Of a stretch of 64,000 nt of DNA, positions 39,748 through 62,034 are shown piece by piece; within the stretch, counting starts at the first letter, position 1; each line of letters starts with the position of its first letter. The translations under genes were made by a program, and so were the position numbers. The stretch covers positions 2,559,482 through 2,623,481 of the forward strand of contig NZ_CP127390.1 of NCBI RefSeq assembly GCF_030286045.1. Reading direction: 5' to 3'. The notes beneath the pieces were generated by a model that saw only the letters and a list, made by a program, of their open reading frames with translations, had not been told where the DNA came from and did no database searches. Source of the DNA: Propionimicrobium sp. PCR01-08-3. GTDB taxonomy: Bacteria > Actinomycetota > Actinomycetes > Propionibacteriales > Propionibacteriaceae.

Positions 39748-40338
39748 CTACGGTTCGCCAAACACGGCTCGGGCGCGAGCCAATCCGTCGATCAGTGCCG
39801 TCAGGCCGAAGTCGAACTCCCGGTCGCGTTCCGGATCGCTCGCACTGCCGGCCTCTGCCGCCTGTTCCTCCAGCACGACGCCGACGGTGTATCGGCTGAC
39901 CGCGATCAGGGCGCTGACTGCTGTCTGCTCATCGAATCCTTGCGACACGAGAAGCCCAATCTGCCGGTCAGGTGCATCAGTTCCCTCGTCAGTGTCGTCG
40001 TCGGATGGTCTGCGGTGATGCTCGGCGTGGAGGCGTGCGCCGTCGCGGACCGCGTGTAATGCGTTCCGGAAGCTTCTCGCGTTGCGAAGCAGAAATGCGT
40101 CCCATTTCTCCTCGGGCTCGGGAAAAGAGGCGTGGTGCTCCCGGTCAAGCACATCGCTGGCCAGCGCAGCGAGGAGGTCGGCCTTCGTGCGGAAGTGCCA
40201 GTAGAGGGCGGGCTGCTGTACCTGGAGGTGAGCGGCCAGCGCGCGAGTCGTGAAGCCGTCGATCCCCGTCTCGTCGAGTACCTGCCGCGCCCCGCGCAGT
40301 ACCGCCGCGCGGTCGAGACGTGTCCGGTGCTGAGCCAT
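39748..40338 (-). CDS. tetR: TetR-type repressor of tetracycline efflux
   Basis: A 196-residue repressor of the TetR class proper. The helix-turn-helix is GFTTRALAAHLQVQQPALYW followed by HFRTKADLL; the C-terminal domain ends REFDFGLTALIDGLARARA. Family knowledge: tetracycline-Mg binding releases it from tet operators. It is divergent from the tetA-like gene, with two operator-like palindromes in the 38-base gap. ATG 40338. Confidence 0.9.
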   Translation of the reverse strand: MAQHRTRLDRAAVLRGARQVLDETGIDGFTTRALAAHLQVQQPALYWHFRTKADLLAALASDVLDREHHASFPEPEEKWDAFLLRNARSFRNALHAVRDGARLHAEHHRRPSDDDTDEGTDAPDRQIGLLVSQGFDEQTAVSALIAVSRYTVGVVLEEQAAEAGSASDPERDREFDFGLTALIDGLARARAVFGEP

Positions 40339-40347
40339 GGTTGCACT

Positions 40348-40360
40348 TTATCATCGATAA
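40348..40360. promoter_or_regulatory. tet-like operator 1
   Basis: The palindrome TTATCATCGATAA lies 10 bases upstream of tetR. It resembles the classical tet operator core (CTATCA-N-TGATAG). Its centre is 15 bases from the second operator. Confidence 0.8.
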
Positions 40361-40362
40361 CT

Positions 40363-40375
40363 TTATCTTAGATAA
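40363..40375. promoter_or_regulatory. tet-like operator 2
   Basis: The palindrome TTATCTTAGATAA directly abuts the tetA GTG start. With operator 1 it should let TetR repress both divergent genes. Confidence 0.8.
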
Positions 40376-40376
40376 G

Positions 40377-41570
40377 GTGATTGTTCGCCTCTCCCACCGG
40401 GGAACCCTGACGACCGTGCTCATCACGGCGGCCCTCGACGCCGCAGGGCTCGGCCTCGTGATGCCGATTCTGCCCACCCTGCTCGACCAGATCGGCGCCC
40501 CGGACGACATGATCCCTCTGCACGTCGGGCTGCTGACCGCGCTCTACGCCGTCATGCAATTCCTCTGCGCCCCAATCCTCGGCAAACTCTCTGACCGTTT
40601 CGGACGACGCCGCGTGCTTGTCGCCTCGCTCGCGGGAGCGACGATCGACTACCTCGTGCTGGCACTGACGAGCACACTGTGGGTCTTCTACCTCGTCCGC
40701 GCGGTCGCCGGGGTCACCGGTGCCACGAACGCCGTCACTGCGACGGTGATCGCCGACATCACTCCGCCTGATCAGCGTGCGAAGCGGTACGGGTGGCTCG
40801 GTGCCTGCTACGGCGGTGGCATGATCGCCGGCCCCGCCATCGGTGGCTTCTTCGGTGGGATCTCGCCGCATCTGCCATTCCTCGTCGCCGCCGCGCTGAC
40901 CGGTATCATCCTCGCACTCAGCTTGAGTCTGTTGCGAGACACGCGGCCACAGGGTGGCGACGGCACGGTGGCACCAGATCCCAGTACGGCGAAGCTCACC
41001 GCGGCGCCAGGGATGCTGCTCCTTCTCGCCGTCTTCGGCATGGTGCAGTTCATCGGCCAAGCACCAGGCTCCAGCTGGGTGCTCTTCACGCAGCAACGCC
41101 TCGACTGGAGCCCCGTCGAAGTTGGCGTCTCACTGTCCATTTTCGGGCTGGTGCAGGTGTTCGTGCAGGCGGCACTGACCGGACGCATCGTGTCCCGGGT
41201 CGGCGAGACCCGAGCGATCCTCGTCGGCATCGTCGCCGACGCCGTCGGCCTTATCGGCCTCGCCCTTATCATCAACGCGTGGGCGATGCTGCCGATCCTC
41301 GCGGCTCTCGGACTCGGCGGTATCACCATGCCCGCACTGCAGACGCTGCTCTCCGGACGCGTCCCCGACCAGCGGCAGGGGCACCTGCAGGGGACGCTTG
41401 CGAGCCTGAATAGCCTCACCTCGATCATCGGCCCCGTCACCTTCACCGGCATCTTCGCGCTCACTCGAATGGGTGCCGACGGCACTCTCTGGCTTTGCGC
41501 CGCAGCGCTATATGTTCCCTGCGCGCTCCTGATGATCCGTGAGGCGTACGCTTCACGGGGATACAGATGA
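40377..41570 (+). CDS. tetA: Tetracycline efflux MFS transporter
   Basis: A 397-residue, 12-span drug/proton antiporter of the TetA group. Signatures: ITAALDAAGLGLVMPILPTL in helix 1 (motif with the conserved Asp), GKLSDRFGRRRVL as MFS motif A, VRAVAGVTGATNAVTATVIAD, and GWLGACYGGGMIAGPAIGGF as motif C. The closest relatives I know are the actinobacterial Tet(33)/Tet(Z) type, but the exact class needs alignment. The GTG start at 40377 sits immediately after operator 2, so the mRNA leader must be very short or absent. It is an expected tetracycline-resistance determinant. Confidence 0.9.
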   Translation: MIVRLSHRGTLTTVLITAALDAAGLGLVMPILPTLLDQIGAPDDMIPLHVGLLTALYAVMQFLCAPILGKLSDRFGRRRVLVASLAGATIDYLVLALTSTLWVFYLVRAVAGVTGATNAVTATVIADITPPDQRAKRYGWLGACYGGGMIAGPAIGGFFGGISPHLPFLVAAALTGIILALSLSLLRDTRPQGGDGTVAPDPSTAKLTAAPGMLLLLAVFGMVQFIGQAPGSSWVLFTQQRLDWSPVEVGVSLSIFGLVQVFVQAALTGRIVSRVGETRAILVGIVADAVGLIGLALIINAWAMLPILAALGLGGITMPALQTLLSGRVPDQRQGHLQGTLASLNSLTSIIGPVTFTGIFALTRMGADGTLWLCAAALYVPCALLMIREAYASRGYR

Positions 41571-41610
41571 CCTCGTTGAGGCATCATCCTAAGCAGATTG
41601 CGGGATGCGG

Positions 41611-42137
41611 GCGATTCAAGAATCGCCGTGTAGTCGAAGCTCTCGTCTCTCTCGAGCTCGAGAACTGATGCAGTTAGGGCGAAGCTACCTCTCATCAACC
41701 GGGCGAAGCGACAGTGTGGCCGCCACGTCGACAGAGGACGGCCCTCCTGGGAAGCCGGCCTGAGAGATAAGCACGGCGCCGAAGACCGCGCTCCAGAATG
41801 TCTTCGCCGCCCGGCCGACACCTTGGTCTGTCGTCCATCCGTGTTCGCCAAGTTCTTTCTCCAGGAACCGCTCGGAGTGGCGAAACAGGAGGTTGAGTCC
41901 AGTCTCGACCGTCGGCTGCACCGCGGGGTTCCCGCGCGCGAGGGCGAGCGCGCTCACCACGACGGTCGTAGATGGCATGGTGAGAGCAGTTCGGGCGAGC
42001 ACCTCGCGCAGACCATCAGGTGTGGACACTCTACGACCTGCCTTCTTGAGGCGTTCGGTGTCTCGCAGCAGAAGCCCGAATGCGGCGTCGATATACAGCG
42101 CGTCCTTGGAGCCGAAGTGGTGGGTGATTTGGTTGGG
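41611..42137. repeat. 527-base direct repeat, copy 1
   Basis: This segment recurs at 58671-59197 in the same orientation, shifted by 17,060 bases, with only two mismatches that I can see (near 41637-41640). It starts inside a hairpin (GCGATTCAAGAATCGC) and ends within a TetR-family gene. In this copy the TetR gene is cut off at the repeat end; in copy 2 it is whole. Confidence 0.95.
41685..42137 (-). pseudogene. TetR-family regulator, N-terminus lost
   Basis: The frame matches residues from about 48 to the end of the intact TetR at 58745-59341, without changes. The DNA-binding first part is missing because the repeat ends at 42137, where unrelated methyltransferase sequence begins. An internal ATG at 42029 would give only a 114-residue ligand-domain piece, which cannot bind DNA. 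Confidence 0.9.
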
Positions 42138-42612: not shown

Positions 42613-43779
42613 ATGCCTTTTCCCCTCTACATGCTTGCTCTGGCAGTTTTCGTCATGGGCACATCAGAATTCATGCTCGCGGGACTGCTCCCCGCGATCG
42701 CGACCGAACTTGACGTATCGGTTGGCACGGCGGGTCTGCTGACCTCCGCATTCGCGGTCGGTATGGTCATCGGCGCACCAGTGATGGCGGCGTTTGCTCG
42801 CCAGTGGCCACCGCGGCTCACACTGGTCGCCTGCCTGCTCTTATTCGCGGGAAGTCACGCCATCGGAGCGGCGACCCCCGCCTTCTCACTCCTCCTCATC
42901 ACCAGAGTGCTCAGCGCTCTTGCAAACGCCGGATTCCTCGCCGTAGCGCTGAGCACGGCCACGACCCTCGTTCCACCAAACCAGAAAGGGCGCGCACTGT
43001 CGATCCTGCTCTCCGGCACGACGATCGCAACCATCGCAGGCGTCCCCGCCGGCGCGCTGCTCGGCACCGCGCTGGGCTGGCGAACCACGTTCTGGGCGAT
43101 CGCCATCCTCTGTGTTCCAGCGTTCTTCGGAATCATCCGCGGCATCACGAACAAGGCCAGGCAGTCCGCCACAAGTGCGTCCTCACCAAAGCTGAGTGCT
43201 GAGCTCAGCGAATTGGCGCGACCACGGCTGATTCTGGCCATGGTGCTCGGAGCGTTGACCAACGGCGGAACTTTTGCGGCATTCACCTTCCTCGCCCCAG
43301 TCGTGACCGAGATTGCGGGTCTGGCCGAAGGTTGGGTGTCCGTTGCGCTGGTGATGTTCGGCACAGGATCGTTCCTTGGCGTCACGACCGCCGGACGACT
43401 GTCGGATCAACGCCCCGGCCTCGTGCTCGCAGTCGGAGGGCCGCTGCTGTTGACGGGCTGGATCGTGTTGGCCTTGCTCGCGTCGAATCCCGTTGCGCTG
43501 GTCGTCCTCGTGTTCGTTCAGGGATTCCTCTCATTCGGTGTCGGCAGCACTTTGATCACGCGTGTGCTGTACGCCGCGTCAGGTGCGCCAACGATGAATG
43601 GTTCGTACGCAACCGCAGCACTGAACATCGGAGCTGCCGCGGGACCTGTACTTGGTGCGTTCGGGCTGGTAACTGGGCTCGGGCTGCTTGCGCCGGTTTG
43701 GGTGGCCGCGGCGCTGACAACGACCGCTCTCGCCATCATGGTTCTCACCTGGCGGTCTCTCACAGTCATACGCAACTGA
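42613..43779 (+). CDS. cmx: Cmx/CmrA-type chloramphenicol efflux MFS transporter
   Basis: A 388-residue, 12-span MFS drug exporter. The N-terminus PLYMLALAVFVMGTSEFMLA, then GLLTSAFAVGMVIGAPVMAA and ITRVLSALANAGFLAVALST, closely follow the layout of the actinobacterial Cmx/Cml chloramphenicol exporters; late ATAALNIGAAAGPVLGAFGL is the motif-C-like repeat. ATG 42613 has no strong ribosome site. A longer upstream leader (42,430-42,612) has a short ORF but I cannot show attenuation. Chloramphenicol is the likely substrate from family knowledge; other drugs are possible. Confidence 0.82.
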   Translation: MPFPLYMLALAVFVMGTSEFMLAGLLPAIATELDVSVGTAGLLTSAFAVGMVIGAPVMAAFARQWPPRLTLVACLLLFAGSHAIGAATPAFSLLLITRVLSALANAGFLAVALSTATTLVPPNQKGRALSILLSGTTIATIAGVPAGALLGTALGWRTTFWAIAILCVPAFFGIIRGITNKARQSATSASSPKLSAELSELARPRLILAMVLGALTNGGTFAAFTFLAPVVTEIAGLAEGWVSVALVMFGTGSFLGVTTAGRLSDQRPGLVLAVGGPLLLTGWIVLALLASNPVALVVLVFVQGFLSFGVGSTLITRVLYAASGAPTMNGSYATAALNIGAAAGPVLGAFGLVTGLGLLAPVWVAAALTTTALAIMVLTWRSLTVIRN

Positions 43780-47928: not shown

Positions 47929-48212
47929 TTAGAGTGCGTGTCCGCCCGCGACCTGGAGTACTTGGCCAGTGATCCACCGCGCCTGGTGTGAGGCCAGGAA
48001 GACACATGCATCGGCGATGTCCTCCGGCGTGCCGGCGCGCCCCAGCGGGATCGCTGTCACGGCTTCACGGACGAGGTTCTCACTCATCCACCCTGTCTGT
48101 ACCGGACCAGGGGCGACCGCATTGACGCGGAGTCCTTGGGGGCCGAGATCAATGGCCACACCTCTGGTCAGTGCTTCAAGAGCCGCTTTCGATGACCCGT
48201 AACCGACTTTTG
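47929..48212 (-). pseudogene. SDR oxidoreductase, C-terminal half only
   Basis: The frame begins at the active-site Y-x-x-x-K (YGSSKAALEALTRGVAIDLG) and continues LRVNAVAPGPVQTGWMSE, AGTPEDIADACVFLAS and ITGQVLQVAGGHAL, the C-terminal half of a classical short-chain dehydrogenase. The cofactor-binding N-terminal half is gone; an IS481-type fragment adjoins at about 48212. Confidence 0.8.
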
Positions 48213-48292
48213 GGCGATGGGTTTGGTCTTACAGCGTTCGATCAATCGTCGGCGCCCCTCGTTCGTCAGCGACTCGTACGGGTAATTCTTCT
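48213..48292 (-). pseudogene. IS481-type transposase N-terminal fragment
   Basis: The minus strand reads YPYESLTNEGRRRLIERCKT followed by KPIAQ, like the start of IS481-family transposases (typically ...LTPEGRRRLIERC-TRPIAHVA). It lies directly after the MFS stop and against the SDR fragment, so it marks a deletion or insertion scar. Confidence 0.5.
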
Positions 48293-49510
48293 TCAGCCTG
48301 CCTTCGGCGTCTCGTCGGTATGGTCTGATCCGTAGCCGTCGTCGTGTCGCGTTCTCGTGACCGTGCGCCGGCTCAGCGTCCAGGTGAGTAGTCCGCAGAC
48401 GGCGAAGCTTGCCCCGAGAATGGCGCATCCGGTCCATCCTGACGTGGAGTAGATCATGGCTGTGGCCGTCGCTCCGAGGGCGGAGCCGAGCGAGTAGAAG
48501 ATCATATAACCGCCGATGGTGCTGCTGGTCTGACCAGAGTAGGCGTTGGTGAGAAGAGTCTGGTTGCTGACGTGCGCGACCTGGACCGCGAAGTCCAGGA
48601 CGATGACCCCGACGACGACGAGCCAGAGCGACCAGGTGGCCTGCCCCGATGCGATCCAGGAGAGGGCCAGCAGTGCCAGTGCGGTACCGGTCACGGGGTT
48701 GGCTCGGCCGATATCGGCCCATCGACCTGCCCGTGCAGCTCCCAGTGCGCCCGCGAGCCCGGCGATTCCGAACAAGCCGATCTGGGCGGTGCTCAGCTGC
48801 CACGGCTCGGCAGCAAGTGGTAGCGCGAGTCCGCTCCAGAGCGTGCCGAAGGAAGCGAAGAGGAAGAACGCGATCAGTCCGCGCGAGATGTACAGCGGTT
48901 CACGGAAGAGGTGTCCGAGGGAGGTCAGCGCGTCGCCGTAGGTCCTGCGATTCGATCGGCGGTCTGCCGGCAGCTGATTCAGCACCGCGATCGAGAGCGC
49001 GACGAGAAGCAGCATGAGCGTGAGGTAGATACTTCGCCACCCCCACAGGCCGGCGAGAGCCCCCGCCAGGACGCGCGCCCCAAGGATTCCGATGATGACA
49101 CCGGAAGTGACGATTCCGAGCGTGCGGCCACGCTCGGTAGGCGTGGACAGATCAGCGGCGAATGCGACGGTGGTCTGCACGACGACGGCGAACAGACCTG
49201 TCGCGGCGAGACCGATGAGCAACAGCCACAGACCAGGGGCGACCGCGGCCACCAGCATGCCGACCGCGGCGAGGAGGAGTTGGCCCCCGATGAGCTTGCG
49301 CCGGTCCAGCACGTCTCCCAACGGGACCAGGACAACCAAGCCGACCATGTAGCCGATCTGCCCAGCTGTCACGATCCACCCCAGGTCAGACTCTGGCACT
49401 CCTAACTCTCGCCCGATCCGCGCGAGTACTGGCTGGGCGACGTAGATCGTCGCGACAGCGACTGAGCAGACCATCGCGAGCAGCGTCCTTCGACCATGCG
49501 TAAGTCTCAC
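48293..49510 (-). CDS. MFS transporter
   Basis: A 405-residue, 12-span major facilitator. ATIYVAQPVLARIGRELGVP leads helix 1; VLVPLGDVLDRRKLIGGQLL is motif A, and SGVIIGILGARVLAGALAGL holds the motif-C region. The GTG at 49510 follows GGGGGTGGT, better than the TTG at 49531. The group exports small drugs or metabolites. It is divergent from an HxlR regulator whose likely binding region lies between. The last codons abut an IS481-type remnant. Confidence 0.82.
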   Translation of the reverse strand: MRLTHGRRTLLAMVCSVAVATIYVAQPVLARIGRELGVPESDLGWIVTAGQIGYMVGLVVLVPLGDVLDRRKLIGGQLLLAAVGMLVAAVAPGLWLLLIGLAATGLFAVVVQTTVAFAADLSTPTERGRTLGIVTSGVIIGILGARVLAGALAGLWGWRSIYLTLMLLLVALSIAVLNQLPADRRSNRRTYGDALTSLGHLFREPLYISRGLIAFFLFASFGTLWSGLALPLAAEPWQLSTAQIGLFGIAGLAGALGAARAGRWADIGRANPVTGTALALLALSWIASGQATWSLWLVVVGVIVLDFAVQVAHVSNQTLLTNAYSGQTSSTIGGYMIFYSLGSALGATATAMIYSTSGWTGCAILGASFAVCGLLTWTLSRRTVTRTRHDDGYGSDHTDETPKAG

Positions 49511-53979: not shown

Positions 53980-54121
53980 GATATGTGCGGCCGCACTTCC
54001 GGATCCGAAAGGAAATGGGATCCGCGATGCTTCGGCATGCTCGGATCATTGAGCCGCAGCTCCAAGGACGCATCGCGATGAGCATGTCGCGCACATTGCG
54101 AACGTCAGTGGCCGCCTGGTC

Positions 54122-54916
54122 TTAGATATCGCGACTGTCACTTCTGTACGCACTCGGTGCGAGGCCGAGGACCTTACGGAAGTCTGCGGCGAGGTGGGCA
54201 TGATCCGCGTACCCGAGTTCTGCCGAGACATGTGCAATGTTAAGTGAGGGGTCTTGCCGCAAGCGCAGAGCGGCCTCTTGGAGGCGGTACCGGCGAATAA
54301 TCGCGAGCGGTGGGAGACCCACATAGCGTCGCGCGAGACGCTGCACTGCGCGGATCGATATTCCCAGGTGCGTTGCGACCTGATCGACACGAACGATGGT
54401 CCGGTCTGAGGAGATGAGGTTCTCCATCTCATTGGCCAGCATGGCATTCGCGTCCGCAGCCTGGAAGCGCTCTGCAGCCCACTCTGTGAATGCAACGATG
54501 GCGTGCTCCAAACCGTTTGTGTCTTTCCCTTTTCCCATGGCAGCAGTCACGGTCGTATGCAGCTCGGGAGCGTCAAAGGCAATCTCGGAGTTTTTGATAC
54601 CGTGTGGATCTGCATGCAGTGATGCGATTCCGGCTGGACGGAGCGACGCACCGACCGCCCACCCGCGGCCGCGGAGATCCTGGTGCGACGTGCCGGTGGT
54701 GGGGCCATGGAGCTTCACTCCGTCGCTTTGAACGACCAGGTTCGACGCCGGAAACGGAAGCACTCTCTGCCGAGATGTTCGCCCTGGAGGAAGCTCCCAG
54801 CGCGGCACCCAGAACCAGCGGATCCATGCGTCGATGCCTTCCTCTGCTCGTTCTCTGTGGAAGGACGGGAGTTTGGTCGGGTACAGGATGCCTCGTCCGT
54901 CAGTGAGCTCAGTCAT
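54122..54916 (-). CDS. AraC-family transcriptional regulator
   Basis: A 264-residue regulator with a C-terminal AraC DNA-binding domain: VDQVATHLGISIRAVQRLAR is the first helix-turn-helix and LNIAHVSAELGYADHAHLAA the second, followed by FRKVLGLAPSAYR. The N-terminal half has the DUF6597-like layout (WIRWFWVPRWELPPG). ATG 54916 with GGAGGTGCC upstream is chosen; the longer frame to 55051 overlaps the divergent VOC gene. It probably regulates that gene. Confidence 0.87.
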   Translation of the reverse strand: MTELTDGRGILYPTKLPSFHRERAEEGIDAWIRWFWVPRWELPPGRTSRQRVLPFPASNLVVQSDGVKLHGPTTGTSHQDLRGRGWAVGASLRPAGIASLHADPHGIKNSEIAFDAPELHTTVTAAMGKGKDTNGLEHAIVAFTEWAAERFQAADANAMLANEMENLISSDRTIVRVDQVATHLGISIRAVQRLARRYVGLPPLAIIRRYRLQEAALRLRQDPSLNIAHVSAELGYADHAHLAADFRKVLGLAPSAYRSDSRDI

Positions 54917-54985
54917 GGCACCTCCGTTCCCACCTCGTCGTGAATCTTCAAGCCACCGTGGCCGTCGCGCGAATACGCTCGAAGC

Positions 54986-55507
54986 ATGACCGAAAACAAC
55001 TTGCACCAACCTGGCGTTTCTGGCAACCACACTACCGATGGCATCCCGCACGGGTCGACCAGCCTGACCCCGTTCCTCGCGGTCACCGGTACCACCGATG
55101 CTGTCGAATTCTACCGCTCAGTATTCGGCGCTCGCCTCGTCGACGCCACCGAGATCAACGGTATCGTGGTCCATGCCGAGCTGGACTTCGGTAACGGCAA
55201 ACTGCAGCTCGGCGAGCCCAGCCCTGATTACGGGCTCGTGCCAGCTCCGTCGGGAGACAACGTGTGCTATTCGATGGGCCTGTACTGCGCGGACATCGAC
55301 GCGACAGTAGAACGAGCCGAACATGCCGGAGCCACTATTCGTGAAGCGACGAGCACGTTCGTCTCTGGCGACCGCTTCACCTCCATTCATGATCCATTCG
55401 GAGTGCGCTGGTCGGTCATGTCCCGTGTCGAAGATCTCTCCGAAGCCGAAAGCATGGAACGAGTCGCCGCCTGGGCGGCGGGCCAGGAAACCGGCGAGAC
55501 GCAGTAA
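54986..55507 (+). CDS. VOC-family protein, PhnB type
   Basis: A 173-residue glyoxalase/bleomycin-resistance fold protein. SLTPFLAVTGTTDAVEFYRS and FGARLVDATEINGIVVHAEL form the first beta-alpha-beta unit, and AGATIREATSTFVSGDRFTS with IHDPFGVRWSVMSRVEDL form the second, the PhnB-like pattern. Metal ligands are not obvious, so it may bind a small molecule rather than act as an enzyme. It is divergent from the AraC regulator. Substrate unknown. Confidence 0.85.
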   Translation: MTENNLHQPGVSGNHTTDGIPHGSTSLTPFLAVTGTTDAVEFYRSVFGARLVDATEINGIVVHAELDFGNGKLQLGEPSPDYGLVPAPSGDNVCYSMGLYCADIDATVERAEHAGATIREATSTFVSGDRFTSIHDPFGVRWSVMSRVEDLSEAESMERVAAWAAGQETGETQ

Positions 55508-55591
55508 CCGACGCCCAGCGGCGGATCGGTCGACCCGATCCGCCGCCTGGATCGTGGATGAAAGGGTGATTGAAGAAAAGAGGTCACGCAC

Positions 55592-56116
55592 ATGGAGCAT
55601 GCAGCTCTGCTGCGCGGGGTGAACGTCGAGGGCATCACGATCCGTTCGGCGGATCTCAAAGGACTCTTCGTTGGGCTCGGCTTCGAAGATGTGCGCACAT
55701 ATCTCGCCAGTGGTAACGCGCGCTTCACTTCGGACGCCGCAGATCGCGCGGAACTCAAAGCAACGATCGAGCGGGCACTTACGGCGCGATTCGGCTACGA
55801 GGCCTGGAGCGTGCTCGTCACCCTCGATGAGCTCCGCCGAGCCCGTGATGAACTGCCCTTCGACCCTGCCGACACGACCCATAATTCCTATGTGATTTTC
55901 GGCGCGGACGGAGCGACGAGGGATGCACTGATGCAGAAGTACCATGATCTTCCGCACGGGGAGGATTGCGTACTGCCCGGACCGGGCGTGATCTACTGGA
56001 ACGTGCCCGTGACCGACACGACCAGTTCTCCGTTCGGCAAGGAACTTGGCCGCACCGCCTGGAAGCGTACGACTACGAATCGCAACATCCGTACCGTCAG
56101 CAGGATCACGGTCTGA
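55592..56116 (+). CDS. DUF1697 protein
   Basis: A 174-residue protein of the DUF1697 family, with ALLRGVNVEGITIRSADLKG and FEDVRTYLASGNARFTS typical of the N-terminus, and GVIYWNVPVTDTTSSPFGKE with RTAWKRTTTNRNIRTV at the end. The function is unknown. It is preceded by GAAAAGAGG and may be co-transcribed with the VOC gene 84 bases upstream. Its end overlaps the convergent AraC gene by 11 bases. Confidence 0.88.
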   Translation: MEHAALLRGVNVEGITIRSADLKGLFVGLGFEDVRTYLASGNARFTSDAADRAELKATIERALTARFGYEAWSVLVTLDELRRARDELPFDPADTTHNSYVIFGADGATRDALMQKYHDLPHGEDCVLPGPGVIYWNVPVTDTTSSPFGKELGRTAWKRTTTNRNIRTVSRITV

Positions 56117-57116
56117 GCAGCGACAATGAGGATCGCACCGGCGTGATCACACCCCCAGAGATCGCGCTTTGTTCGCGGCGCACTGCCCCCGGTGTCCGTC
56201 CGATGATGCGTGTGAAGGCACGGTTGAATGCTGCTTCGGAGCGGTAGCCGAGTTCGGTGGCGAGTCGGGCCGCGGTGGTGTTCTCTTCACGGAGCCGGTT
56301 GTGGGCGATGTTCATTCTCCAGCGGGTGAGGTATGCGATCGGTGCTTCTCCAACGAGCTCGGTGAAGCGGGTGCTGAATGATGAGCGCGACATCGTTGCG
56401 AGGTGTGCGAGTCGTTCGAGTGTCCATTCGCGACCGGGGTCGGCGTGGATTGCTTCGAGCGCTCTGCCGATTCGTTCGTCCTGCATGGCGAGCAACCATC
56501 CGGTCCCGGTGTCGGGATCGGCGGCGAGCCAGGTGCGGATCGCTTGGATGACGAGGATGTCGGCGAGCCTGGTGGCCACGGCCTCGCCGCCGGGCTGCGT
56601 GCGTGCGAGTTCGCCGGCCATGAAGCGCAGGGTGTCACGGATCGGTTCCGCGGCGGAGGCGGTATCGCCACCGACGAACAATAGTTGCGGCAGCGCACGC
56701 ATGAGCTCCCGTGCTGCCGCGTCGTCGAACGAGACGATGCCGCAGATCAGTTGACCGCGCCGACCATCACCTCCGTACTGCAGGAGTGAGTAGCGGTCGG
56801 TGAGGTACTGCTGCGGCAGCAGATCGACGCGGGGGCCGGGTGGCGCGTCTGGCGCACTGGCCAAGAAATGTCCGAGCCCGTGAGGCACCAACACCAGGTC
56901 TCCTGCTCGTAGTTCGCGGGACTCGCCGCCCGGCAGGCGGAGCCAACAGGTGCCGGCGGTGACGACATGAAAGCTGATCGAGTCGACGATGGCCGGCATC
57001 TCGAGCGCCCAGGGCTCAGTGAGCTGGGCATGGCAGTAGAACGTGCTGCGCATTCGCAGCGTGTGCAGCACTCGGGCCAGCCGATCGGTACTGCCGGGGA
57101 CAACAGCATCTTCCAT
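56106..57116 (-). CDS. AraC-family regulator with cupin domain
   Basis: A 336-residue regulator. The N-terminal cupin (about residues 10-190) has VDSISFHVVTAGTCWLRLPG and LVLVPHGLGHFL; the C-terminal AraC domain reads ERLAHLATMSRSSFSTRFTE and ARLATELGYRSEAAFNRAFT with IIGRTPGAVRR. ATG 57116 begins the conserved part; the upstream frame is not. It is divergent from the NAD(P)-binding protein and DUF1772 genes, a common grouping, so those are its likely targets. Confidence 0.9.
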   Translation of the reverse strand: MEDAVVPGSTDRLARVLHTLRMRSTFYCHAQLTEPWALEMPAIVDSISFHVVTAGTCWLRLPGGESRELRAGDLVLVPHGLGHFLASAPDAPPGPRVDLLPQQYLTDRYSLLQYGGDGRRGQLICGIVSFDDAAARELMRALPQLLFVGGDTASAAEPIRDTLRFMAGELARTQPGGEAVATRLADILVIQAIRTWLAADPDTGTGWLLAMQDERIGRALEAIHADPGREWTLERLAHLATMSRSSFSTRFTELVGEAPIAYLTRWRMNIAHNRLREENTTAARLATELGYRSEAAFNRAFTRIIGRTPGAVRREQSAISGGVITPVRSSLSLLRP

Positions 57117-57262
57117 GCGCACAGCCTTCCATGGATGATCACGATAGTTCCGACCAAAGCAGATGAATGAGCAAGAAACTCGAATGTTCAGGCATAGATC
57201 CACCGTCGTCAACATCGTACGGTCGGACTGGTAAGAGCGCTATACGACCGAAAGGAAACGCT

Positions 57263-58126
57263 ATGTACGTCGTTGCCGGGGCAACAGGCAGAGTCGGATC
57301 GGCTGTAGCAAGGCAACTGTTGTCCGAGGATGCGGAAGTGCGGGCACTCGTGCGTCGTCAGGTCGATGCCGATGGCTGGGAGGCGCAGGGTGCCGGAGCA
57401 CGCATCGTCTCATTGGACGACCGTTCCACGCTGACTGAAGCGCTCGCAGGTTGCGCTGGGTTCTTCGCGCTGCTGCCGTTCGACCTCACCACCAATGATC
57501 TCAACGAGCACACGGAGCGTTTGGTCGAATCGATCGCGGGCGCCGTGGCCGGTGCCGCCGTGCCGCATGTGGTGCTGCTCTCGTCCGGCGGCGCGGACCT
57601 CGCCGAGGGCACCGGCCCGATCGCCGGGCTGCACTGCGCGGAAGTGGCTCTGCGTGCGACGGGCACGGTGCTCAGTGCGTTACGCTCGGTTCATTTCCAG
57701 GAGAAGCTCGCCGATGTGCTCGATACGGCTCGCGAGAGCGGCATCTACCCGGTGTTCGCCGGTTCGGCGGATGTGTCGGTTCCGATGGTCGCCACTGCTG
57801 ATCTTGGAGCAGTCGCCGCCGACGTCCTGCAATCACCTCCCAGCGTGAGTGAAGCAATTGATGTTCTCGGCCCTTCGTATTCGGAGCGAGCTGTTGCTGC
57901 GGTGCTGGGTCGCGCACTGGGCCAGGAATTGACGGTCGAGGTTATTCCGGAAGAAGTGTGGGCGGACGTGCTTACCGAAGCAGGCTTCCGGCCGCGTATC
58001 GCAGCAAGCCTTGCCGAACTGTATCGAGCTGATCAACAGGGGCTGCTCGCGCCTCGCGGCGACCGCCAGGTCAGCGGGCATACGCCGATCGATGTCACGA
58101 TCGACCGCCTCCTCGCGGCAAGCTGA
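57263..58126 (+). CDS. NAD(P)-binding NmrA-like protein
   Basis: A 287-residue Rossmann protein of the atypical SDR group. YVVAGATGRVGSAVARQLLS gives the Gly-rich cofactor motif, with ALVRRQ after the second strand and VVLLSSGGADLAEGTGP later; the catalytic Tyr/Lys pair is not obvious, as in NmrA/HSCARG-type sensors. AAAGGAAACGCT precedes the ATG. It probably reduces a small metabolite or senses NADPH. It forms an operon with the DUF1772 gene 13 bases downstream. Confidence 0.85.
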   Translation: MYVVAGATGRVGSAVARQLLSEDAEVRALVRRQVDADGWEAQGAGARIVSLDDRSTLTEALAGCAGFFALLPFDLTTNDLNEHTERLVESIAGAVAGAAVPHVVLLSSGGADLAEGTGPIAGLHCAEVALRATGTVLSALRSVHFQEKLADVLDTARESGIYPVFAGSADVSVPMVATADLGAVAADVLQSPPSVSEAIDVLGPSYSERAVAAVLGRALGQELTVEVIPEEVWADVLTEAGFRPRIAASLAELYRADQQGLLAPRGDRQVSGHTPIDVTIDRLLAAS

Positions 58127-58138
58127 CCAGGCAGCCAG

Positions 58139-58618
58139 ATGTGCGTTTTTCTGACGAGCTTGCTCTCGGTCGCCACCGTCACCAATGGGCTGCTCGCAGG
58201 AGTGTTCTTCGTATTCTCCTGTGCCGTCGTTCCCGGCCTCCGGCGTGTAGATGATCGTACATTCGCGTGTGCGTTCCAGGCGATCAACCGGGCGATCCTC
58301 AACAGCTGGTTCCTGAGCGTCTTCATCGCGGCACCCGTCACCGGGGTCGCCTGCGCCGCACTCACTATCTGGAAGGTGTCGTTCATGCCGACACTCATCG
58401 GTGCGGCTGCGGGCGGGTCATTGCTCACCTTCGCTATCACGGCGGTGAAGAACGTGCCACTGAACAATCAGCTCGATCGCGCGACGCTCAGCAGCCCGGA
58501 GGGTCTCCGAGTGGCGCGTCAAGCCTTTGAACGACCGTGGACGCGCTGGAACCTGGCACGCACGCTCACCAGTCTCGTCGCGTTCGGCTGCTTTGTCGTT
58601 GCCGGGATCCTCGCATAG
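58139..58618 (+). CDS. DUF1772 membrane protein
   Basis: A 159-residue protein with four hydrophobic segments, of the DUF1772 (anthrone oxygenase-like) family: TNGLLAGVFFVFSCAVVPGL at the start, FACAFQAINRAILNSWFLSV, and VPLNNQLDRATLSSPE with RWNLARTLTSLVAFGCFV at the end match the family pattern. Its activity is not established. It follows the NmrA-like gene in one operon under the cupin-AraC regulator. Confidence 0.85.
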   Translation: MCVFLTSLLSVATVTNGLLAGVFFVFSCAVVPGLRRVDDRTFACAFQAINRAILNSWFLSVFIAAPVTGVACAALTIWKVSFMPTLIGAAAGGSLLTFAITAVKNVPLNNQLDRATLSSPEGLRVARQAFERPWTRWNLARTLTSLVAFGCFVVAGILA

Positions 58619-58670
58619 CCTGGCGCGAATCCACCGGTGTTCTGAGGGGAAGCGCAACACCTTCTACGGC

Positions 58671-59197
58671 GCGATTCAAGAATCGCCGTGTAGTCGAGGT
58701 TCTCGTCTCTCTCGAGCTCGAGAACTGATGCAGTTAGGGCGAAGCTACCTCTCATCAACCGGGCGAAGCGACAGTGTGGCCGCCACGTCGACAGAGGACG
58801 GCCCTCCTGGGAAGCCGGCCTGAGAGATAAGCACGGCGCCGAAGACCGCGCTCCAGAATGTCTTCGCCGCCCGGCCGACACCTTGGTCTGTCGTCCATCC
58901 GTGTTCGCCAAGTTCTTTCTCCAGGAACCGCTCGGAGTGGCGAAACAGGAGGTTGAGTCCAGTCTCGACCGTCGGCTGCACCGCGGGGTTCCCGCGCGCG
59001 AGGGCGAGCGCGCTCACCACGACGGTCGTAGATGGCATGGTGAGAGCAGTTCGGGCGAGCACCTCGCGCAGACCATCAGGTGTGGACACTCTACGACCTG
59101 CCTTCTTGAGGCGTTCGGTGTCTCGCAGCAGAAGCCCGAATGCGGCGTCGATATACAGCGCGTCCTTGGAGCCGAAGTGGTGGGTGATTTGGTTGGG
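58671..59197. repeat. 527-base direct repeat, copy 2
   Basis: Identical, apart from two bases I can see, to 41611-42137 and in the same orientation. Here the hairpin CTACGGCGCGATTC-AA-GAATCGCCGTGTAG is complete, whereas copy 1 has lost its outer left arm, and the TetR gene runs on past the repeat end. This copy is therefore closer to the source. Confidence 0.95.
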
Positions 59198-59341
59198 GTA
59201 GACGCCGGCGGCCTTGGCCAACACACTCACCGTGACGTCGGTGAACGTGCGGTCTCGGAAGAGGGCCATCGCGGCCTCGCGAATCCTCCAACGCGTGCCT
59301 GCACCACGAACGGATTGCCTGTGCTGATTCTTGTCGGCCAC
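58745..59341 (-). CDS. TetR-family regulator of the ketosynthase gene
   Basis: A 198-residue regulator. The N-terminal RWRIREAAMALFRDRTFTDV with VSVLAKAAGVYPNQITHHFG is the TetR helix-turn-helix; the C-terminal ligand domain includes LNLLFRHSERFLEKELGEHG and WSAVFGAVLISQAGFPG. The start is GTG 59341. It is divergent from the fabF-like gene over 58 bases carrying two identical palindromes, so it very likely represses both. Its last two thirds are duplicated at 41685-42137. Confidence 0.9.
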   Translation of the reverse strand: MADKNQHRQSVRGAGTRWRIREAAMALFRDRTFTDVTVSVLAKAAGVYPNQITHHFGSKDALYIDAAFGLLLRDTERLKKAGRRVSTPDGLREVLARTALTMPSTTVVVSALALARGNPAVQPTVETGLNLLFRHSERFLEKELGEHGWTTDQGVGRAAKTFWSAVFGAVLISQAGFPGGPSSVDVAATLSLRPVDER

Positions 59342-59348
59342 CTCTTAA

Positions 59349-59363
59349 TTGTATGTGATACAA
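59349..59363. promoter_or_regulatory. TetR operator 1 (TTGTAT-N3-ATACAA)
   Basis: The perfect palindrome TTGTATGTGATACAA lies eight bases before the regulator start. Its centre is 21 bases, about two helical turns, from operator 2. Confidence 0.88.
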
Positions 59364-59369
59364 ATGTAG

Positions 59370-59384
59370 TTGTATACGATACAA
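59370..59384. promoter_or_regulatory. TetR operator 2 (TTGTAT-N3-ATACAA)
   Basis: The palindrome TTGTATACGATACAA has the same arms as operator 1 and lies 15 bases before the ketosynthase ATG. It should block transcription of the ketosynthase. Confidence 0.88.
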
Positions 59385-59399
59385 GACAGGAGAACGCTG

Positions 59400-60617
59400 A
59401 TGCGGATTGCGATGACCGGCCACGGAGCGGTGACCCCGCTGGGAGCCAACGTGGACACCCTGTGGTCAGGCCTGATCGAGGGGCGCTCGGCAGCACGCGA
59501 ACTGGACGAGCTGGACGCGTCATGGGCTGACCTCCCGGTTCGTGTCGCCGCTCCCGTGACGACCGATCTCGAAACGGTTCTTGGCCGCGTCCGGGCACGG
59601 CAGCTCGACCGGAGTCAACAGTTGGCACTTGTCGCAGCCAACGAGGCGTGGCAGCAGGCGGGGCTTCGCGACATCGAGCCCGAACGCCTGGCGGTGGCCG
59701 TCGGGACCGGAATAGGAGGCATTCAGACGCTGCTCGGCCAAGATGACACTCTTGAGAGCGGCGGTCCGCGGCGAGTGTCACCGCGCACCGTGCCCATGCT
59801 GATGCCCAACGGCGCGTCAGCCCAGATCAGCATTGAGTACGCCGCGAAGGCCGGAGTCTTTACCCCCACGTCGGCCTGTGCATCGGGAGCGGAGGCCATC
59901 GCGATGGGTGCGCGACTCATCCAAGAGGGCGAGGCGGACGTGGTGATCGCAGGCGGAGCCGAGGCGGCGATCACTCCTTTGACCCTCGCCGGGTTCGCCC
60001 AAGCCCAGGCTCTCGCCAAACCGGACGGAGGGCCGGTCGATCGACTCTCCCGGCCGTTCGACACCGACCGCCGAGGCTTCGTACTCGGTGAGGGAGCCGG
60101 CATCGTGATTCTCGAAAGCGAGAGCCACGCCGCCGCACGTGGCGGCCACATCCATGCCTGGCTTTCCGGATGGGGCATCACCTCGGACGCACACCACATC
60201 ACCGGCACCGAGCCGGGCGGAATCGGCCAGGTCCGTGCCATCCGCAAGGCACTCGCGAGCGGTGGTCTCACCCCGAACGATGTCGGCCACGTGAATGCCC
60301 ATGCGACCGGGACGATCATCGGTGACCGCGCCGAGGCGCAGGCGCTCGTTGAAGTATTCGGCGACGGTGTGAACGTCACTGCTCCGAAGGGCGCGCTGGG
60401 CCACCTCGTCGGAGGAGCGGGGGCCGTCGAAGCGATCATCACGGCACGGACCATTGAATCAGGGATCATTCCCGCGACCGCCAATCTGCAGACCATCGAC
60501 CCCGAAATCCAGCTGGACGTCGTCAAAAAGACCCGCCGCTCGCCCGTGCGGGCCGCGATCAGCAACTCATTTGGATTCGGCGGGCAGAACGTGACACTCG
60601 TCATTTGTGCTGCCTAG
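59400..60617 (+). CDS. fabF: Standalone FabF-like beta-ketoacyl-ACP synthase II
   Basis: A 405-residue ketosynthase. The active Cys lies in TPTSACASGAEAIAMGARLI (about residue 159), the first His in VNAHATGTIIGDRAEAQA and the second in GALGHLVGGAGAVEAI, so the Cys-His-His triad is complete. GIGGIQTLL and NSFGFGGQNVTLV fit FabF. ACAGGAG precedes the ATG. There is no acyl carrier protein, malonyltransferase or ketoreductase nearby, and the gene is under a dedicated TetR, so it looks like an inducible extra copy. Resistance to a fatty-acid synthesis inhibitor is one possibility; membrane lipid adjustment is another. Confidence 0.9.
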   Translation: MRIAMTGHGAVTPLGANVDTLWSGLIEGRSAARELDELDASWADLPVRVAAPVTTDLETVLGRVRARQLDRSQQLALVAANEAWQQAGLRDIEPERLAVAVGTGIGGIQTLLGQDDTLESGGPRRVSPRTVPMLMPNGASAQISIEYAAKAGVFTPTSACASGAEAIAMGARLIQEGEADVVIAGGAEAAITPLTLAGFAQAQALAKPDGGPVDRLSRPFDTDRRGFVLGEGAGIVILESESHAAARGGHIHAWLSGWGITSDAHHITGTEPGGIGQVRAIRKALASGGLTPNDVGHVNAHATGTIIGDRAEAQALVEVFGDGVNVTAPKGALGHLVGGAGAVEAIITARTIESGIIPATANLQTIDPEIQLDVVKKTRRSPVRAAISNSFGFGGQNVTLVICAA

Positions 60618-60712
60618 AGGAGGCAGTCCGTGCGAACCAAGCCTTCGATCAGAGCTACCAGGCTGAAATCGAACTCCCGGCCACGTTCCGCAGGCGACAG
60701 GGTGTTCGAGGA
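60614..60712 (-). pseudogene. Remnant of a tetR 3' end
   Basis: The minus strand reads ERGREFDFSLVALIEGLVRT and stops, matching ERDREFDFGLTALIDGLARA at the end of the tetR encoded at 39748. Only this tail remains. It abuts the ketosynthase stop, so a second tet-like repressor gene once lay here. Confidence 0.65.
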
Positions 60713-60747
60713 AATCTTGGGCCTGACAGACGTGAATGCGCCCCTGT

Positions 60748-61320
60748 TCAGGCTTCACGAGGTCCACGCACAATAGAGGAGCAGTACCCGATTCCTGCAA
60801 CGAGGTGGAGGGCCGCTCCGATAATGCAGAGCGCTTGCCCCGCGAGGCCGAGTTGATCGAGTTCCGGGATCGCTCCGAGCCCGACCAGCACGATGCCTGC
60901 CATCAGCACGGCTGTGCGAATCTTTCCGATCCAAGACACTCCAGGAGCATGGCTCGGTCGCACGATGAGGTAGGTCACAGCGAGGGTGACGTCGACTGCC
61001 GCGATGCCCAGAACGACCCAGATGGCTAGCTGACCGGCGACGACGAGCGCTAACGCGATCACTGCGACACCCATGCGATCTGCGATCGGGTCGAGCACAG
61101 CACCTGTTCTGCTGGACTGACCGAGTTTGCGCGCGAGGTAGCCGTCGACCCAGTCGCTGGCCCCGAAGACGATCAACAGGACCACGGCCAGCACGTGCTG
61201 TGACCTGTTGACGATCAGGATCGCAACGGGGATGACGAGCGCGAGCCGGACGAGGGTGATGGCATTGGGGATGGTTGCCCAGTCGTGAGCGCGGGCACGT
61301 TTGGTGGTGAGGTGGCTCAT
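60748..61320 (-). CDS. CDP-alcohol phosphatidyltransferase
   Basis: A 190-residue membrane enzyme that transfers a phosphatidyl group from CDP-diacylglycerol to an alcohol. The family signature D-G-x2-A-R-x8-G-x3-D-x3-D is present as WVDGYLARKLGQSSRTGAVL followed by DPIADR. Six hydrophobic segments surround it. PgsA-like enzymes make phosphatidylglycerol phosphate; others make inositol or cardiolipin products, and the acceptor here is not clear. ATG 61320 overlaps the DedA gene stop, so the two form an operon for membrane lipid metabolism. Confidence 0.87.
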   Translation of the reverse strand: MSHLTTKRARAHDWATIPNAITLVRLALVIPVAILIVNRSQHVLAVVLLIVFGASDWVDGYLARKLGQSSRTGAVLDPIADRMGVAVIALALVVAGQLAIWVVLGIAAVDVTLAVTYLIVRPSHAPGVSWIGKIRTAVLMAGIVLVGLGAIPELDQLGLAGQALCIIGAALHLVAGIGYCSSIVRGPREA

Positions 61321-61925
61321 AGGTGGACCTTCTTTCGGCGGCGAGCGAATAGCCGGCTCGCCACGACAACGGCGAGTACCGTCAGAGTGGGCAATGTGTA
61401 GTGTTCGACCGCGTCCAGGAGCGCGGTGCCGATAGTGGCGCCGCCGACGACCCAGAGTGTCGCCCAAAGAACAGACGCAATTCCGCAGGCTGCGGCGAAC
61501 CTTGAATAGGGCATGGTGGAGGAACCTGCTGCGGCGGCGACAAAGGTGCGGATGCCAGGGAGCAGTCGCGCAAGGATTATTGTCCAGAATCTGCCCGAGA
61601 CATATTGGCGAGCAGTGTTCCATCGGTGTATTCCAAGCCGTCGAATAACTCTGGTGTCTCCCAGTTGCGATCCGAGCCCACGGCCTACCGCGAAGCCGAT
61701 GTGGTCGCCGATGAAGGCCCCTACGGCGGCGGTGGCTACGGCGAGGGCGATAAGTTCGGCACGATCGGACAGGGCGATCGCGGCCAGCACGATCCCAGTT
61801 TCTCCAGGCAGGATGGCGCCTATGCCAAGAGCTGCGTCCATCGCGGCGGCCAGCAGGACACATACCAGCACTAGTGCGACATGTGCACTGGCTTGTTCGA
61901 GGATCGTGCGCAGAAGATCGATCAT
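61317..61925 (-). CDS. DedA-family membrane protein
   Basis: A 202-residue DedA/SNARE-associated (VTT) protein. The signature regions are ILPGETGIVLAAIALS near residue 38, GAFIGDHIGFAVGRGLG, and RFWTIILARLLPGIRTFVAA with the conserved Arg and Gly in the re-entrant loop. Family members flip or recycle lipid carriers such as undecaprenyl phosphate or phosphatidylethanolamine. It is coupled to a CDP-alcohol transferase gene. Confidence 0.9.
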   Translation of the reverse strand: MIDLLRTILEQASAHVALVLVCVLLAAAMDAALGIGAILPGETGIVLAAIALSDRAELIALAVATAAVGAFIGDHIGFAVGRGLGSQLGDTRVIRRLGIHRWNTARQYVSGRFWTIILARLLPGIRTFVAAAAGSSTMPYSRFAAACGIASVLWATLWVVGGATIGTALLDAVEHYTLPTLTVLAVVVASRLFARRRKKVHL

Positions 61926-62034
61926 GCCTGTGAGGCTAGGTTCACCGAGCCGCTTCTCAGCAGTGCCGAAAGTCTGTCATTGATGTTCACTATCGTTAAT
62001 GTCCCGGCCGAAACGGCGTCTGTAGGTTGGGGCC

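Follow-up and report, generated by a model that had tools for sequence, protein, structure and literature searches.

Organization of the locus

The window, i.e. the whole stretch of 64,000 nucleotides that was analysed, harbors a gene for a FabF-type beta-ketoacyl-ACP synthase of 405 amino acids (KS; 59400..60617, + strand), which is oriented divergently from a gene for a TetR-family repressor of 198 amino acids with a GTG start (58745..59341, - strand). A preceding sequence-only reading had described this divergent pair together with a complete Cys-His-His active site, and both observations hold. The KS gene extends from an ATG at 59400 to a stop at 60617 and is preceded by a sequence-predicted AGGAG ribosome-binding site (59388..59392, + strand); the TTG at 59370, which is the start of the mechanically called reading frame, was rejected because it falls within an operator. 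The catalytic residues Cys160 (59877..59879; E. coli C163), His301 (60300..60302; E. coli H303) and His335 (60402..60404; E. coli H340) are all present, as is Lys330 (60387..60389; E. coli K335), each encoded on the + strand. Both ketoacyl-synthase domains score far above their cut-offs (PF00109, 177 bits; PF02801, 104 bits). The protein passes the NCBIfam subfamily model NF005589 for beta-ketoacyl-ACP synthase II (432 bits, cut-off 387) and stays below the strict FabF equivalog TIGR03150 (441.5 bits, cut-off 493.75). Judged by these profiles, the KS is FabF-like and lies outside the strict equivalog. Its structure model is poor (mean pLDDT 72.9), and the geometry of the pocket was not drawn from it.

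The repressor combines the helix-turn-helix domain PF00440 (TetR_N) with the helical ligand domain PF16914 (TetR_C_12), and its confident structure model (pLDDT 90.5) is helical for the most part, in agreement with the composition of a TetR repressor. The closest solved structure is 2HKU (28% identity, Z 18.4, rmsd 3.5 over 180 residues), a TetR-family protein of Rhodococcus sp. RHA1 to which no function or ligand has been assigned. The next structural matches, among them KstR, EilR, FadR and QacR, score alike and their ligands range from acyl-CoA to dyes; the structure comparison singled out no solved homologue whose ligand would be informative.

The intergenic gap between the two genes comprises 58 bp and contains both predicted operators. 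Operator 1 (TTGTATGTGATACAA; 59349..59363) precedes the TetR start by 8 bp, and the centre of operator 2 (TTGTATACGATACAA; 59370..59384) lies 21 bp from that of operator 1. The duplicated palindrome TTGTAT-N3-ATACAA with a centre spacing of 21 bases, as previously described, is thus represented by two perfect sites; by chance, the window would be expected to contain 0.14 sites when up to two mismatches are tolerated. A scan of the complete 3.29-Mb genome retrieved no further site with at most one mismatch, and this uniqueness of the operator pair suggests that the predicted TetR regulon consists of the TetR and KS genes. A promoter-like element for tetR (TATACA-17-TACAAT; 59348..59376, - strand), which is a consensus match only and of which 0.3 are expected per shuffle, spans both operators. 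On the KS strand a TTGTAT-18-TATACG pair, found by eye and of weak consensus, also spans both of them.

Genomic surroundings

The neighborhood contains no other fatty-acid genes, in agreement with the sequence-only reading; the next genes after the KS, on the opposite strand, encode a CDP-alcohol phosphatidyltransferase and a DedA-type protein. The same reading had placed the pair among drug-resistance genes. Two such genes are indeed present at a distance of 15-19 kb on the upstream side: one for tetracycline efflux (40320-41570), accompanied by its repressor, and one for a chloramphenicol exporter of the Cmx/CmrA type (42613-43779). Given this distance, and transposases of IS256 and IS21 in between, the statement applies in a loose sense only. 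This linkage with tet and cmx was found in the present genome only.

The proposed partial duplication of the regulator is evident from a 531-bp stretch directly behind the tetracycline efflux gene (41608-42137, - strand), which copies 58667-59197 at 99.4%. The copy retains TetR residues 45-198; the greater part of the DNA-binding portion is missing, so that its product should not bind DNA. Conversely, the remnant of the C-terminus of a tetracycline-type repressor is located just behind the KS gene (60632..60690, - strand), with 81% identity over 59 bp and 58% over 26 amino acids to the tet repressor gene of the window. With a piece of tet repressor after the KS and a piece of the TetR after tet, the two loci have thus exchanged parts.

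The tetracycline efflux gene itself scores above the TetA/B/C family model and below every named class model listed, the closest of which is Tet(65) with 625 of 800 bits; with the tet(Z) region of pAG1 it shares about 85% DNA identity. By these scores it perhaps represents an unnamed tet class. The exporter gene shares about 86% DNA identity with cmx, which is widespread on plasmids of Corynebacterium and Pseudomonas, and its score of 710 falls short of the 800 demanded by the Cmx model; by these values it is a diverged relative. A reading frame at 48168-48803 (- strand) overlaps the end of an MFS gene and ends in an IS481-transposase-like stretch (EGRRRLIERCKTKPIAQ).

Additional FabF-like genes

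The genome contains three FabF-like genes including the window KS. The housekeeping FabF, about 48% identical to the window KS, is encoded in a fabD-fabH-acpP-fabF locus whose genes were identified by their translated sequence, and the existence of this separate locus shows that the window KS is an extra copy. The fabF count that the sequence-only reading had proposed accordingly disposes of its own counter-scenario, namely that the window KS might be the only FabF of the genome. The third KS gene belongs to a small undescribed cluster (L058:3408-9487), which also encodes an ACP-like protein and an ABC transporter. Separate FabF-like genes are present in every carrier of the TetR-KS pair that was searched, and an extra target copy beside the housekeeping one is a constellation that target replacement would require.

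A recurring two-gene cassette in actinobacteria

Homologous TetR-KS cassettes were found in Propionibacteriaceae, Streptomyces, Kitasatospora and Pseudarthrobacter, 29 in total after removal of overlaps, six of them on plasmids. The divergent KS and the twin operators are kept in 29/29 cassettes, whose TetR homologues exhibit about 38% identity or more. A predicted palindromic operator at the repressor's own divergent promoter is thus a constant trait of all 29. Their distribution is patchy: three cassettes were detected in 395 genomes of Actinomycetes, three in 198 genomes of the own family and 19 in 296 Streptomyces species, and six TetR homologues are present among 72,556 plasmids. The 19 Streptomyces carriers form a group at 82-97% identity, with no intermediates down to an E value of 1e-15 in the 296 species.

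The KSs of the cassettes are 57-68% identical to the window KS. In the KS tree all 28 cassette members (28/28) form a single clade without outsiders (local support 0.88), while its deeper placement is not settled. An identical copy of the operator 1 15-mer is present in most other cassettes, and a counterpart of operator 2 was found in all of them, at a distance of 21 bp in Propionibacteriaceae and of 27-30 bp in the others; in the two closest relatives of the window cassette (G483 and G935) the second operator is altered in one arm. The median dN/dS values of 0.19 for the KS and 0.21 for TetR indicate that both genes are maintained by purifying selection. A remote TetR_C_12 protein of genome G187 (27% identity) has no adjoining KS and was treated as an outgroup rather than a cassette member.

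Viral contigs contain no relative of the TetR. Two matches of the twin operators in AT-rich phage DNA are accompanied by neither TetR nor KS and were judged to be chance hits, and the phage records among the matches listed are ordinary host-like FabFs only (31-45% identity). A PADLOC search gave no match. A search of the open literature retrieved no paper on a TetR/FabF cassette, which does not prove its absence.

According to this comparison the pair is a recurring two-gene unit, newly recognised here and more general than the reading of a single locus could reveal. Its inducible layout is well supported by the DNA of the carriers. The 29/29 pairing, the genome-unique operators and the housekeeping FabF located elsewhere lend strong support to the central claim of the sequence-only reading, namely that an extra FabF is inducible through a TetR dedicated to it.

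Mobility of the cassette

Unrelated flanks surround the Streptomyces cassettes, one sister pair excepted. In most copies the similarity at the DNA level (median 84-91%) ends close to both stop codons. An IS481-type transposase gene, named by reading its translated sequence, is located after several Streptomyces cassettes. At locus L055 it is found downstream of the KS and open over more than 200 residues, and at others it is progressively shortened to remnants. The silent-site distances of the cassettes do not follow those of their hosts, as documented by the comparison with the housekeeping fabF (rank correlation 0.18, p 0.36; 28 pairs from eight hosts). One example is the pair G340 and G685, with a distance of 0.084 for the cassette and 0.399 for the housekeeping fabF.

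Two of the six plasmid-borne cassettes are located on plasmids typed as conjugative. Two plasmid carriers belong to Pseudarthrobacter; one of these cassettes adjoins genes for chlorophenol-type catabolism and the other originates from creosote-polluted soil. The occurrence in unrelated surroundings and on plasmids is that of a mobile cassette. A megablast search with positions 54000-62000 of the window retrieved no plasmid match, and a comparison of the region with other genomes of the genus revealed no DNA-level matches beyond weak ones to FabF.

Residues with a possible bearing on inhibitor resistance

Positions are given in E. coli FabF numbering without the first Met. The gate residues Phe398/Phe400 and Thr270 of the KS are as in E. 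coli FabF, as is Phe229, and Phe202 is conserved. Family-specific residues are located beside the catalytic site (Gly306, Leu/Ile338, Gln403) and in or near the acyl pocket (Thr198, Ala205, Arg132), the latter differing from housekeeping FabFs. From general knowledge of the fold we take these positions to line the pocket. The conserved changes at 306, 338 and 403 are compatible with an altered binding of inhibitors and represent candidates for it.

The comparison with known resistant FabF variants, by which the sequence-only reading wanted to see a possible insensitivity examined, did not bear it out in the expected form. Ile108, the site of the I108F exchange in cerulenin-resistant FabF (PMC3996569), is retained, and none of the textbook exchanges that confer resistance is common to the family. 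Pro272 is replaced by Thr only in the window KS and its two closest relatives (G483, G935). By our own numbering it matches KasA Pro280, which is located at the end of a loop beside the isoprenoid pocket of thiolactomycin (PMC9519891). The loss of Pro272 and Pro308 was considered as a resistance mark of the family and rejected: Pro272 is kept in 25/28 and Pro308 in 24/28 cassette KSs. Resistance through other changes or through dosage is possible. In M. smegmatis the overexpression of KasB was by itself sufficient for a ninefold rise of the platensimycin MIC (PMC2707616), which documents that dosage alone can protect.

Proposed function and alternative explanations

As far as can be read from the DNA, the cassette consists of two genes and their operators, conserved as a unit, with an extra FabF and a mobile history. 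Rarity, mobility and self-regulation of a spare gene for a known antibiotic target make up the pattern of an inducible target bypass. A mobile TetR-FabF unit that serves this purpose against a KS inhibitor is our leading hypothesis, for which we see about an even chance. We infer repression by TetR, FabF activity of the KS, a ligand and insensitivity. TetR, bound to the twin operators over the divergent promoter region, would silence both itself and the accessory KS. Binding of a small molecule would release the repressor and allow the KS to be made, and chain elongation in type II fatty-acid synthesis would then be carried out, or supplemented, by the KS. As trigger we consider most likely a natural product that inhibits KSs, or else some effect of a blocked FabF; the KS may then act as a less sensitive, or simply as an additional, target. 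Target replacement against a KS inhibitor is a plausible hypothesis, and mobility, plasmid carriage and rarity fit. Against it stand the E. coli-like state of Ile108, Phe398, Phe400, Phe229 and Thr270, the restriction of the Pro272 loss to three members and of the tet/cmx linkage to this genome, and the finding of no evident KAS-inhibitor cluster around the cassettes with annotated neighbors.

More tentatively, and with somewhat less than an even chance, we propose that the cassette represents a horizontally moving unit of KS-inhibitor resistance with a ligand-sensing TetR, twin operators and a less sensitive FabF, spread by transposition and conjugative plasmids. If so, the TetR would be a natural sensor for an antibiotic class, possibly one not yet described, and KS-inhibitor resistance would already circulate in environmental actinobacteria, plasmids included, before the wide use of FabF inhibitors. 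The repressor and its simple palindrome would provide an immediate reporter tool for the molecule that calls for the spare FabF.

A membrane-lipid switch is the most serious alternative, albeit a rather unlikely one. In this scenario the signal sensed by the TetR would be a membrane-active compound, an acyl-CoA or a free fatty acid, and the membrane lipids would change in chain length or branching through the KS, with no drug target being replaced. The acyl-CoA-binding regulators KstR and FadR are among the structural neighbors of the TetR, the differences of the KS at T198, R132 and A205 in or near the acyl pocket could alter chain preference, and the chlorophenol-type catabolism neighborhood and the creosote-polluted soil of the two Pseudarthrobacter plasmid carriers are in line with such a signal. 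However, KstR, EilR and QacR score alike, so that the fold does not point to acyl-CoA, and the operators are found nowhere else in the genome, which argues against co-regulation of any other lipid gene. The patchy distribution and the mobility are also less like lipid homeostasis. Should the trigger nevertheless be a lipid or membrane signal, the cassette would represent an unusual transferable switch for membrane composition.

It is improbable that the KS serves specialised metabolism with a partner ACP encoded elsewhere and a pathway-type TetR. Standalone KSs are abundant in Streptomyces, a KS with 54% identity to the window KS adjoins an ACP gene on a plasmid, and the third KS of the genome also adjoins an ACP-like gene, but the annotated cassettes contain no ACP, reductase or other conserved partner. 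Common flanks are absent except in sister species, and the unit comprises two genes only; this explanation is disfavored because no partner gene travels with the KS. A chance layout or a decayed passenger, i.e. TetR and KS carried by transposition without a dedicated function, might be suspected from the transposases and broken gene copies in the surroundings, but it is practically excluded by the conservation of partner, orientation and operators in 29/29 cassettes across several families and by dN/dS values near 0.2.

Comparison with known systems

A precedent for the preferred reading, an inducible target bypass, is the self-resistance of Streptomyces platensis to platensimycin and platencin via PtmP3/PtnP3 and an insensitive housekeeping FabF; PtmP3 is a FabB/F homologue that confers platensimycin resistance by target replacement (PMC6332302, PMC6804068). 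Common to the cassette and to PtmP3/PtnP3 is that a condensing enzyme of the FabB/F type is present in addition to the housekeeping one. In contrast, PtmP3 is located in the biosynthetic cluster of the producer and also replaces FabH, whereas the cassette stands free of any recognised cluster and consists of just two genes, including its own TetR. Extra FabB/F genes, e.g. tlmF and tueF, are also present in thiotetronate clusters, and a role in self-resistance has been proposed for them (PMC5518548). The likeness lies in extra KAS I/II genes proposed as protection against a KAS inhibitor. The difference is that these are producer clusters, for which the parts of the source available to us describe no dedicated divergent TetR, and that the resistance itself is a proposal. 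In the literature surveyed, protective spare FabF genes are known or proposed only within the clusters of producers.

Duplicated resistant targets of other kinds have been reported for actinomycetes, namely an indolmycin-resistant TrpRS and a novobiocin-resistant gyrB (PMC6804068). They resemble the cassette in the presence of a spare target enzyme beside the sensitive housekeeping one and differ from it in their targets; the spare gene of the cassette is, moreover, mobile and has a TetR of its own, with twin operators.

Independent pairs of equivalent layout were found on the Streptomyces plasmids of NBC_01267 and NBC_00984, where a standalone KS (about 53% identical) is likewise divergent from a TetR (PF17926). 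Pairs of this type are located at L065:4260-6203, L066:4203-6203 and L121:1483-3483, the last of which is probably chromosomal. The pairs of NBC_01267 and NBC_00984 differ from the cassette by another TetR subfamily and another palindrome (CCAACCA...TGGTTGG); the TetR/KS layout thus arose more than once.
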